Assembly (NCBI GenBank): GCA_016938195.1
Contig: JAFGVC010000100.1
Location: 1 to 64,000 of the forward strand
DNA: 64,000 nucleotides
Direction of reading: 5' to 3'
DNA from: Tissierellales bacterium
GTDB lineage: Bacteria > Bacillota > Clostridia > Tissierellales > Dethiosulfatibacteraceae
Under the pieces are notes generated by a model, which saw only the letters and a list, made by a program, of their open reading frames with translations, ran no database searches and was not told the origin of the DNA. A program made the translations under genes and the position numbers. Positions 56,602 to 62,442 of the stretch are shown one piece after another; the stretch's first letter is position 1, and each line of letters begins with the position of its first letter.

Positions 56602-57031
56602 TTTGCTGGAAAAACTAGAGGATATTGTGGAAGAAGCGTCAAAGCTTCCTATGTCAAATAAAGTGGTAGTTCATAAGCACGAGGTGCTTGAAATCATTAC
56701 TGAAATGCGTATAAAACTTCCTGATGAAATCAAACAAGCTTCATGGATTAAAGAAGAAAGGCAAAGAATATTGTCTGAAACTCAGTCAGAGGCTTCAAGT
56801 ATTATTAATGATGCTATGCACAGACAGTCTGCATTGATTGATGATCATGAACTTACAAAGCTTGCGGAACAAAATGCTAAAGAGATTGAAGAAAGAGCAA
56901 GACGAACTGCTTTTGAGCTCAAAAAAGAAACGATTGAATACTGCGACCGGCTGTTGGCTAAGACACAAGAGGGGATGGAAAAAATCCTAAAAACCTTAGC
57001 TGAAAACAGAGAAGAGCTTGATAATTTATAA
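56588..57031 (+). CDS. Coiled-coil protein of unknown function after coaD
   Basis: This 147-residue soluble protein is largely helical, with heptad-like repeats around residues 48-140 (ERQRILSETQSEASSIIND and LAEQNAKEIEERARRTAFEL). Sequences like it are often named ATPase or ATP synthase B-like, because they resemble the stalk of F-type subunits; DivIVA-like coiled-coils are also similar. No ATP-binding motif is present. It starts with GTG, GGGAGG lies upstream, and it overlaps coaD by 14 bases. I do not recognise a function. Confidence 0.8.
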   Translation: MEIINLLEKLEDIVEEASKLPMSNKVVVHKHEVLEIITEMRIKLPDEIKQASWIKEERQRILSETQSEASSIINDAMHRQSALIDDHELTKLAEQNAKEIEERARRTAFELKKETIEYCDRLLAKTQEGMEKILKTLAENREELDNL

Positions 57032-57060
57032 AAGAGATGGTTTATGCCATCTCTTTTATA
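57027..57060. terminator. Strong bidirectional terminator
   Basis: TATAAAAGAGATGG (57027-57040) and CCATCTCTTTTATA (57047-57060) form a perfect 14-bp palindrome with a 6-base loop. It has T tracts in both directions and ends both the coiled-coil gene and the convergent tmcAL; the stop codons of both genes lie in it. Confidence 0.9.
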
Positions 57061-58253
57061 ATAAATGGGTTTTTAAAATTTTCTTCGTTGTATCGACCGG
57101 AGTTTAACGCTAAGTGATAAATATTTGTCGAATGGTTAGTCAATTTATTGATTTTAATATCAGTATCACTGGCTTGTTGTTCATCAAAATCGGATTTTTT
57201 TGTTATAAAATGGACATTATTTTTATTGGATTTCAAAAATACTTGTCCGGTTTTATCAAAAGCTAATACTTTAATACAGTGAATATCATCAAGCTGAAGA
57301 CTATTATAAAAATGATTATCAAGGTCTAAAAGAGCGTTCAATAGAATTCTTCTTATTCTGGCGTAGGTATAACGCTTCGATTTGATGGAATGAATTATGT
57401 CATCAATATTTTCACCATGCATAATATTTTTTAGAATTTTATTCTCTATTCCTTCACTTACTTCATGAATGCTTGATAATTTTTGTATATCTGTCGTTAT
57501 TATTTTAAATTTTATTTCTCTAATTAAGTTTTCCAGGGTGTTAAAACGATTATATTCTTCATAAAATTCGCAAATTGAAGAATAAGAATTTTCTGGAACA
57601 TTTTTAGATATATCAGATAAATGTCCATCAAGCATTTTTCCTCTTATTGCCGTCGCACTTGAAAAATCGGTTGCTAGATTTGTAGAGTTGTAGTCACTGC
57701 CTTTTCTAAGGATGTGAAGGGGTTCGATTTTGTATTGGTTTCTAATAATAGTCTTCATATATTCTAAAGCCAGAATATTGTTGGGTGTAAAAATATCTTT
57801 GGCTGCGAAATGGTTAACAGATGAGGATAAAGCACGTGGGTATGACAGACCTGTCTTAAGAGATACTCTAAGCTTTTCTTTATAAGCATCTGTCTCAAAA
57901 GCCATATTTTTTGCCAAAGCTTGAAGCAAATTAATATTATCTGTTTCTGTTCCAAAGCATATGTAGGGAATTTCCAGCTTTGATAAAACAGCAAGCGCAC
58001 CGGAAGCAAAATAATCTGCACTCTGAATGGCATAGGGTATAGGTAATTCAAGTACCAAATTAGCACCATTCATGACAGCAACCTTGGCTCGTTGCCACTT
58101 GTCAATGATAGAAAGATCTCCTCTTTGAACAAAATTACCACTCATAATAACAACAATACAATCCGCCTTATACTTTTGTCGGATATTATCCAGTAGATAC
58201 TTGTGACCATTGTGAAAAGGATTGAATTCAGCTATAACACCAATATTTTTCAT
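57042..58253 (-). CDS. tmcAL: tRNA(Met) cytidine acetate ligase TmcAL (YlbM)
   Basis: TmcAL (403 residues) forms N4-acetylcytidine at C34 of elongator tRNA-Met from acetate and ATP. It has the nucleotidyltransferase-like start VIAEFNPFHNGHKYLL (about 5-20), VIMSGNFVQRGD (about 36-47) and LELPIPYAIQSADYFASGA (about 70-88). Acetate kinase lies divergently at 58370, so both genes use acetate. ATG at 58253 follows a GGGTGAT site. A possible HIGH-like histidine pair is in HNGH. Confidence 0.94.
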   Translation of the reverse strand: MKNIGVIAEFNPFHNGHKYLLDNIRQKYKADCIVVIMSGNFVQRGDLSIIDKWQRAKVAVMNGANLVLELPIPYAIQSADYFASGALAVLSKLEIPYICFGTETDNINLLQALAKNMAFETDAYKEKLRVSLKTGLSYPRALSSSVNHFAAKDIFTPNNILALEYMKTIIRNQYKIEPLHILRKGSDYNSTNLATDFSSATAIRGKMLDGHLSDISKNVPENSYSSICEFYEEYNRFNTLENLIREIKFKIITTDIQKLSSIHEVSEGIENKILKNIMHGENIDDIIHSIKSKRYTYARIRRILLNALLDLDNHFYNSLQLDDIHCIKVLAFDKTGQVFLKSNKNNVHFITKKSDFDEQQASDTDIKINKLTNHSTNIYHLALNSGRYNEENFKNPFIIKEMA

Positions 58254-60416: not shown

Positions 60417-61418
60417 ATGAGAATAATAGTAGATGCAATGGGCGGCGATCATGCACCTAAAGAAATTGTTAAAGGTTCAATATTAGCGGTTAAAGAATAT
60501 GATATTGATATTTTGTTGTGTGGAAAAGAAGTGGAAATCAAAAAACATATCCCTCAAAGCTCACAAATACTTCACAAAATAGACATTTTGAATGCAGAAG
60601 AAGTAATTACCAACGAGGATAAACCTGTCAAAGCTATTCGAAGCAAGAAAGATTCATCTCTTGTAAAAGGCATGAATGCTTTAATTTCAGGAGAAGGAGA
60701 TGCAATTGTTTCCGCAGGAAATACAGGAGCGCTATTGACCGCAGGTTTATTTATTGCTGGACGACTTAATGGGATAGAAAGACCAAGCTTAGCGCCATTA
60801 TTTCCCAATGGTGATCGCTTCAGTCTTTTGATGGACGCAGGGGCAAATGTTGATTGCAAGCCATTGTTTTTATTGCAGTTTGCAATGATGGGCAAAATAT
60901 ACATGGAGAAAATTTTCAACATTCAAAGTCCAAAGATTGGACTGATTAATATCGGTGCTGAGGAAGGTAAAGGAAATAAACAGGCTATAGAGACATATGA
61001 TTTATTAAAAAGCTCTAATCTTAATTTCATTGGCAACATTGAAGCTAGGGATATTTTAAACAATAACGCAGATATACTCGTATGTGATGGTTTTGTAGGT
61101 AACATTGTTTTGAAATTAACGGAAGGTGTTATGACCGAATTAATGAAGCAAATTAAAACCGAATTAAATAAAACAACAAAGTCGAAGTTAGGTGGTTTAC
61201 TCATCAAAGACTCGATGAAATCATTAAAAGGTAGATACGATTATACCGAACACGGTGGAGCACCCTTACTTGGATTGAAATATCCGGTCATTAAAGCGCA
61301 TGGTAGTTCTAATGATATTGCCATTAAAAATGCACTTAAGCAAGCAAAATTATTTCTAGACAACAAAGTAAACGAAACAATTATTGAAGAAATAAATAAA
61401 GGAGGCGATTTAAATTGA
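60417..61418 (+). CDS. plsX: Phosphate acyltransferase PlsX
   Basis: PlsX (333 residues) makes acyl-phosphate from acyl-ACP for PlsY. The N-terminal VDAMGGDHAPKEIVKG (about 5-20), the SAGNTGALLTAGLF stretch (about 98-111) and GFVGNIVLKLTEG are family signatures. ATG at 60417 follows GAGGTG; an upstream in-frame ATG at 60393 adds an untypical leader. Its stop overlaps the TTG of acpP, so donor and substrate carrier are translated together. Confidence 0.97.
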   Translation: MRIIVDAMGGDHAPKEIVKGSILAVKEYDIDILLCGKEVEIKKHIPQSSQILHKIDILNAEEVITNEDKPVKAIRSKKDSSLVKGMNALISGEGDAIVSAGNTGALLTAGLFIAGRLNGIERPSLAPLFPNGDRFSLLMDAGANVDCKPLFLLQFAMMGKIYMEKIFNIQSPKIGLINIGAEEGKGNKQAIETYDLLKSSNLNFIGNIEARDILNNNADILVCDGFVGNIVLKLTEGVMTELMKQIKTELNKTTKSKLGGLLIKDSMKSLKGRYDYTEHGGAPLLGLKYPVIKAHGSSNDIAIKNALKQAKLFLDNKVNETIIEEINKGGDLN

Positions 61419-61657
61419 TATTTGAAACTTTAAAAAATCTAATCATAGAAAGGCTAAATGTAGATGAGGATTTCCCAATCACATTGGACACTTCGTTTGT
61501 GGATGATCTTGAGGCGGATTCTATTGGCTTGGTAGAGCTTATCATGGGAATTGAGGATGAGTATGATATAGAAATTGATGATGAAAACGCGGATAAGATT
61601 AAAACAGTAAGAGACGCCGTCGAGTATCTTGAAAAAACAATCAATAAAAAGTCCTGA
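61415..61657 (+). CDS. acpP: Acyl carrier protein
   Basis: AcpP (80 residues) carries acyl chains on a phosphopantetheine arm. The attachment serine is Ser36 in LEADSIGLVEL (about 32-42); the third position of the motif is Ile where most ACPs have Leu. The protein is acidic throughout, as expected. It starts with TTG after GGAGG and overlaps plsX by 4 bases. No fab genes lie nearby, unlike many Firmicutes. The stop codon is part of the terminator stem. Confidence 0.94.
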   Translation: MIFETLKNLIIERLNVDEDFPITLDTSFVDDLEADSIGLVELIMGIEDEYDIEIDDENADKIKTVRDAVEYLEKTINKKS

Positions 61658-61675
61658 TTTCAGGACTTTTATTCA
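61647..61675 (+). terminator. Terminator overlapping the acpP stop codon
   Basis: AAAAGTCCTGA (61647-61657) pairs with TCAGGACTTTT (61660-61670), an 11-bp inverted repeat with a very short loop, and ATTCAAT follows. The acpP TGA is the end of the left arm. Confidence 0.82.
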
Positions 61676-61728
61676 ATAATTAGTGATTAGTGATTAACTA
61701 CAAAGTTAGTTAGTAATCTCTAATTATT
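61675..61728 (+). promoter_or_regulatory. 25-position hairpin in the rnc 5' leader
   Basis: Bases 61675-61699 pair in perfect register with 61728-61704 around the loop ACAA (61700-61703). I count 23 pairs (two of them G-T) and two mismatches (61684/61719 and 61690/61713), without bulges. The helix of about two turns ends a few bases before GGGAGG of the RNase III gene. It looks like an RNase III substrate, so autoregulation is plausible; no promoter was identified within it. Confidence 0.65.
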
Positions 61729-61740
61729 AGGGAGGAAAAG

Positions 61741-62442
61741 ATGAATCATGAAATATTTAAATTAGAATCATCAATAAATTATTCGTTTATTGATAAAGAA
61801 TTAATCCAAGAAGCATTGACACATAGTTCATATTCCAATGAAAATGGACAGGACATATTTAACAATGAGCGATTAGAATTTCTTGGAGACGCTGTTTTGG
61901 AGATTTTAATCAGTGATTACCTTTTTGCACGATATAAATCCTTATCTGAGGGCAAGCTTACAAGAATAAGATCAATGGTAGTATGCGAGGAAGTATTATA
62001 TGAATTAGCAGCAAAATTAGATTTAGGCGAGTGTCTTCGATTAGGCAAAGGAGAAGAGCTAACAGGCGGCAGAACAAAAAAATCTATATTAGCTGACGGG
62101 TTCGAGGCTTTAATTGCTGCCATATATATTGATGGAGGCATAGAAAAGGTTCGAAAACTTATTTTGCCAAAATTCATATCGTATATTGAACGTGCTTTTG
62201 ATGGAAGTAATAACCTTGATTATAAGACTAGAATTCAAGAAATTATACAGAAGGATATTCCAGGAAAGAAATTGAAGTATTTAGTTTATAATGAAGATGG
62301 GCCTGATCATGACAAAATTTTCTATATTAACCTATATCTTGACCATCAGCTTATCGGACGTGGAGAAGGCAAGAGCAAAAAAGCCGCTGAACAAGAGGCC
62401 GCTAGAAATGCTTTAATCAGTAAGGGATGGTTGAATGATTAA
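61741..62442 (+). CDS. rnc: Ribonuclease III
   Basis: RNase III (233 residues) cuts double-stranded RNA, as in rRNA precursor processing. The catalytic domain has the signature NERLEFLGDAVLEILISDYLF (in part; about 41-61) and the second acidic cluster ADGFEALIAAIYIDGG (about 119-134); the C-terminal dsRNA-binding domain (about 158-230) ends in GRGEGKSKKAAEQEAARNAL. GGGAGG precedes the ATG. A long hairpin in its leader may be its own target. The radical-SAM gene overlaps by 8 bases, then smc, the usual clostridial order. Confidence 0.97.
   Translation: MNHEIFKLESSINYSFIDKELIQEALTHSSYSNENGQDIFNNERLEFLGDAVLEILISDYLFARYKSLSEGKLTRIRSMVVCEEVLYELAAKLDLGECLRLGKGEELTGGRTKKSILADGFEALIAAIYIDGGIEKVRKLILPKFISYIERAFDGSNNLDYKTRIQEIIQKDIPGKKLKYLVYNEDGPDHDKIFYINLYLDHQLIGRGEGKSKKAAEQEAARNALISKGWLND

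Follow-up and report, generated by a model that had tools for sequence, protein, structure and literature searches.

The gene for ribonuclease III (rnc) in the window, the 64-kb stretch of DNA that was analyzed as a whole, is preceded by a long and nearly perfect hairpin. We propose, with a probability of about three in four, that this hairpin, as double-stranded RNA, serves RNase III as a cis-acting target in the enzyme's own mRNA, giving negative feedback on the enzyme. Binding and cleavage by RNase III, an effect on mRNA life and the feedback itself are suggested by the nature of the helix, its place in the leader, its specificity for rnc and its conservation. The features concerned are collected in Table 1.

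Table 1. Features of the acpP-rnc region, in positions of the window.
Feature	Position	Strand	Basis or remark
rnc leader hairpin, proposed RNase III target	61675..61728	+	fold, ungapped scan, covariation in relatives, covariance model R1
5' arm	61675..61699	+	carries the 5' mismatch bases U61684 and G61690
Tetraloop ACAA	61700..61703	+	fold
3' arm	61704..61728	+	carries the 3' mismatch bases U61719 and G61713
Shine-Dalgarno site GGGAGG of rnc	61730..61735	+	unpaired in the predicted fold
rnc, ribonuclease III, 233 aa	61741..62442	+	TIGR02191 equivalog, 252.2 bits (cut-off 166.25)
acpP, acyl carrier protein, upstream gene	61415..61657	+	TIGR00517, 85.2 bits
Separate 10-bp hairpin, probable intrinsic terminator, overlapping the acpP end	61647..61670	+	fold, terminator scan, relatives

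A long helix between acpP and rnc

Upstream of rnc lie plsX and acpP, and downstream a radical SAM gene followed by the start of an smc-like gene (assigned by sequence). Both the fold and the scan recovered the bulge-free stem of 25 positions and 23 pairs, with its ACAA loop and two mismatches, that had been described in an earlier, sequence-only reading of this DNA. The pairs include two G.U, and the mismatches, one U.U (61684/61719) and one G.G (61690/61713), divide the helix in a 9-1-5-1-9 pattern. The spacing given in that reading needs correction, as the stem and the GGGAGG site are separated by a single base, A61729, and not by three. Structure prediction on 61640-61745, proposed there as a check, returned the hairpin with a minimum free energy of -35.4 kcal/mol (z -5.98, matched by 0 of 200 shuffles), an energy that comes in part from the separate acpP terminator hairpin. 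The helix alone scored 18.0 in the ungapped measure, whereas dinucleotide shuffling of the last 75 nt, repeated 2000 times, never gave more than 14.0. The helix was also the top-scoring hairpin of the window. With 23 of 25 positions paired, and with a median of about 25 positions among its relatives, it is a near-perfect double-stranded RNA helix of about two turns.

Strong hairpins can be chance inverted repeats or members of a dispersed repeat family. The best hairpin in five simulated 64-kb windows, found in one of them, reached 16.5, which is close to the observed 18, and the 5' arm of the rnc hairpin contains a short internal repeat, TTAGTGATTAGTGATTA. Because random sequence of this length comes so near to the observed score, the question of chance is decided by position and by relatives rather than by the fold alone. 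In the window's genome, no further copy of the hairpin was found by BLAST with 86 bases, by a 17-base pattern search allowing two mismatches, or by covariance model R1; that model, built from the window-family hairpins, additionally gives a match on the other strand of this one place. A REP- or MITE-like dispersed repeat was rejected on these grounds, and the scattered copies that the sequence-only reading had named as counter-evidence did not appear. Together with the conserved position and the compensatory changes in relatives described below, the single copy already refutes an origin by chance or as a dispersed repeat, to which we give next to no weight.

An intrinsic terminator was likewise rejected as the identity of this hairpin: the stem is AT-rich, it is followed by AGGGAGGAAAAG instead of a U-run, the helix is too long, and the terminator scan did not report it. 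The hairpin that overlaps the acpP end is kept in the six family members whose leader includes that end. It lies 4 nt from the rnc hairpin, which leaves no room for a promoter, so rnc in the window's genome is probably transcribed by read-through from acpP. Read-through had been suggested from the letters of the window. For this genome it is plausible, but in several related families a conserved promoter-like motif stands directly before the hairpin. Two further observations were made in this genome. At 57026-57061 of the window, a perfect 16-bp hairpin between convergent genes is probably a bidirectional terminator, and a weak relative of RNase III that may be Mini-III, with one in-frame TAA in the matched stretch, was found beyond the window (G000:C6:58981-59331).

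Occurrence in the order and its class

We first located rnc in 60 relatives, then in 249 genomes of the order. Leaders were extracted from loci with an RNase III HMM, start codons being picked heuristically by their Shine-Dalgarno match, and a hairpin was scored when an ungapped stem with isolated mismatches and a score of at least 14 ended no more than 32 nt before the start. With family f3 excluded, this measure finds a hairpin at rnc in 44 of 104 genomes from the order; at the same loci, 2 of 403 other genes have one. The corresponding Fisher p-value of 6e-32 is indicative only, as the genomes are related and it overstates the evidence. One of the two control positives is rnc itself with another start; in the other, a 30-bp hairpin precedes a gene for acetate kinase. 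This second hairpin (L179:2496-2580, genome G242) is perfect and lies directly before its gene, and the rnc gene of the same genome also has a leader hairpin.

At least one genome has the rnc hairpin in 13 of the 19 families, and the gap between stem and start codon in the order is 11-28 nt. All sampled members are positive in f2, f5, f8, f9, f10, f12, f17 and f18, while f19 (11/21), f16 (2/4), f4 (6/23) and f6 (3/16) are patchy. No hairpin was detected by the same measure in f7, f11, f13, f14 or f15, nor in f3 (0/20). In the window's own family, f1, the measure finds it in 5 of 8 members, a count that becomes 8 of 8 when two upstream-shifted hairpins (about 70 nt further upstream, in G002 and G005) and one less regular homologous hairpin are included. 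A quickly built RNase III tree, in which branches are long, requires the trait to have changed 16 times or more; several families are positive throughout. Its absence from six of the 19 families and its patchiness in f4, f6, f16 and f19 indicate that such feedback would be dispensable. Some of the shorter f4 and f6 hairpins, which overlap the acpP end, may be terminators in part, or mixed.

Among 67 rnc leaders sampled from the class, 11 scored positively (some of these 11 being terminator-like), and none of 131 controls did. A recognizably homologous hairpin occurs in all five genomes of family f40 of this class, two of them judged by eye. The f40 leader hairpins (L226, L228, L233, L241, L258) share a motif, UGACGA...UGGUCA, with a G.G opposition. 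The same measure gave 0 of 49 in a wider-phylum sample and 0 of 80 in a named-genome set, and the hairpin is therefore not general in the phylum. It is a trait of the order and of some other lineages of its class.

Conserved pairing, strand and predicted start of transcription

At least three sequence types of the rnc hairpin can be distinguished, all of them with compensatory changes, and the loop differs among relatives in both length and sequence. Alignment A4 (f5, f8, f9, f10, f12, f16, f17 and f18) has 93.2% of cells paired, with both sides changed in 15 of 23 pairs (46 cells). The corresponding values are 90.0% and 9 of 25 pairs (16 cells) for A2, the window's family, and 89.3% and 11 of 26 pairs (24 cells) for A3, which represents f19. 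For each of the three, none of 500 shuffles did as well in paired percentage or in covariation score, and sliding the register lowered pairing to 18-58%. In A2, columns 11/46 and 17/40, which hold the mismatches, are unpaired in 5 of 8 window-family members; we conjecture that these conserved mismatches may be functional. The sequence-only reading had singled out relatives lacking the hairpin without compensating changes as the case against it. Comparison showed the opposite, with the hairpin retained at the same place and many compensatory changes.

Covariance models gave one match per genome, at rnc, in members having the hairpin. Model R2 matched once per genome at rnc in its source families and more weakly elsewhere; as it was built from those very hairpins, the location at rnc follows by construction, and the informative part is the lack of further copies. 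Pairing is kept by selection and is specific to rnc. Stray R2 matches (L324, L325 and L326, in G059, G222 and G244), which were disregarded for rnc, fall on a conserved hairpin of about 22 positions before a gene resembling phosphotriesterase-type hydrolases, possibly another long-hairpin leader.

The strand on which selection acts can be read from the bases opposed in the 44 stems, where G.T (72) exceeds A.C (29; p=2e-5). Since G.T pairs in the transcribed RNA and A.C only in that of the opposite strand, it is the sense-strand RNA that is under selection. A DNA operator palindrome is disfavored by the same excess. Stem lengths are 15-36 positions, with a median that fits about two turns of A-form helix. 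These properties bear on whether the hairpin could be a terminator or attenuator, or an operator for a protein unrelated to RNase III. The leader does lie between acpP and rnc with a true terminator-like hairpin just upstream, and short terminator-like hairpins occupy the same place in f13, f14 and part of f4. On the other hand, no more than 4 T are present in the 8 nt after the stems, the stems are AT-rich, the helix is far longer than control terminators, and several stems directly follow a promoter-like motif; a regulator that reads sequence, for its part, would not tolerate the divergence between families. We consider this group of explanations very improbable.

The promoter-like motif, (T)TTGCAT-N18-TAAACT or ATAGTAAACT, is present upstream of the stem in f8, f9, f10, f12, f16 and f18, and is not present in the window's family. 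Measured from TAAACT, the stem start lies 6 nt downstream in f8, in f18 and in two of the three f10 members (the third has an over-extended stem), and 2-7 nt downstream in f9, f12 and f16. Seven genomes have the spaced motif, each with one or two copies, and the copy common to them lies at rnc. If TAAACT is a -10 element, transcription would start at the stem base, and the stem would lie at the predicted 5' end in families with the motif. In several families, including the hairpin-less f7 and f11, TTTGCAT-N18-TAAACTA is conserved before rnc and overlaps an inverted repeat, ATAGTAAACTAT (L139-L144, L170, L185, L194, L025, L027, L013, L024, L026, L028); the motif may be a dedicated regulator site.

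Long 5' stems generally protect mRNA. The hairpin might accordingly stabilize the 5' end against RNase J type attack, or be a site of acpP/rnc processing, with the level of RNase III not controlled in either case. Stabilization would suit f8, f9, f10, f12 and f18, where the stem is predicted at or a few nucleotides from the 5' end, and processing would suit f1, f4 and f6, where it follows or overlaps the acpP end. Neither role explains why, with 403 control leaders for comparison, the hairpin is nearly confined to the gene of a double-strand-specific nuclease. Moreover, RNase III would cut a stem of two turns as well, so that stabilizer and target roles may coexist. We regard stabilization or processing without control of RNase III as unlikely.

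Proposed feedback and known systems

In the proposed autoregulation, RNase III in excess of its other substrates would cut the stem of the rnc leader. The cut would remove the structured 5' part, and the remaining message would begin with a 5'-monophosphate within the 3' arm, immediately upstream of the Shine-Dalgarno site. The cleaved rnc message would then decay faster, or be separated from acpP read-through RNA, and the outcome would be negative feedback on RNase III. Recognition would depend on the shape and length of the helix (about 22-27 positions, near two helical turns) and not on sequence, which would let the sequence drift freely while pairing is kept. We also lean towards a broader form of this proposal: that RNase III feedback operates across the order, and in some other families of the class, through a leader helix of about 25 positions recognized by shape only, independent of rncO and invisible to sequence searches and to Rfam.

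Autoregulation of rnc through double-stranded RNA in its leader had been the central suggestion of the sequence-only reading, and it is the best reading of the helix, the rnc specificity and the covariation. Its precedents stand only in part: E. coli is a true 5'-hairpin case, but Streptomyces, also named, acts through the coding sequence and is not of the leader type (PMC3386247). We found no earlier description of such an rnc leader element in Clostridia in the open-access literature. In the papers found, feedback on RNase III through the 5' leader is known from E. coli, with S. aureus and Streptomyces using coding-sequence versions. If the proposal is true, the 5'-leader form would be used far from E. 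coli, in more than 10 families of one order and possibly by convergence. The dozens of diverged natural substrates would also make the shape rules of a Gram-positive RNase III (length, tolerated mismatches, loop) readable.

The closest comparison is with E. coli, where RNase III cleaves a 5' UTR structure of rnc and destabilizes the message (PMC8708148, PMC5371410, PMC3386247). Both are double-stranded RNA structures in the rnc 5' leader near the translation start, with cutting and message destabilization proposed for the window hairpin. The E. coli element, rncO (RF00552), has a model of 214 positions, whereas the window element is one simple stem, and the gene downstream is era in E. coli but a radical SAM gene and then an smc-like gene here. 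Rfam families gave nothing in the region but sub-threshold chance matches, and rncO was not among the matches up to an E-value of 5. The RF00552 covariance model, applied with its gathering score as threshold, matched E. coli, as control in the same search, and none of 21 genomes (the window's own and 20 relatives). As far as RF00552 can tell, the leader hairpin thus appears not to be homologous to rncO.

S. aureus offers a second Gram-positive RNase III whose synthesis is limited by cutting of its own mRNA, as proposed here; its target helix lies in the coding sequence, with a cut at U+296 in a long irregular helix (PMC3386247), and not in the leader. Streptomyces RNase III is likewise said to autoregulate through the coding sequence (PMC3386247); the absB transcript of Streptomyces coelicolor is cut by its own product, as we propose for rnc here, yet not at a 5' leader hairpin. 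In arrangement, the window resembles rpsO-pnp of E. coli, where an RNase III cut in the leader between the upstream gene and pnp lowers expression (PMC8708148). In both, a leader structure stands between an upstream gene and a regulated nuclease gene, with RNase III cutting proposed here; the regulated gene there encodes PNPase, and the sequences are unrelated as far as known.
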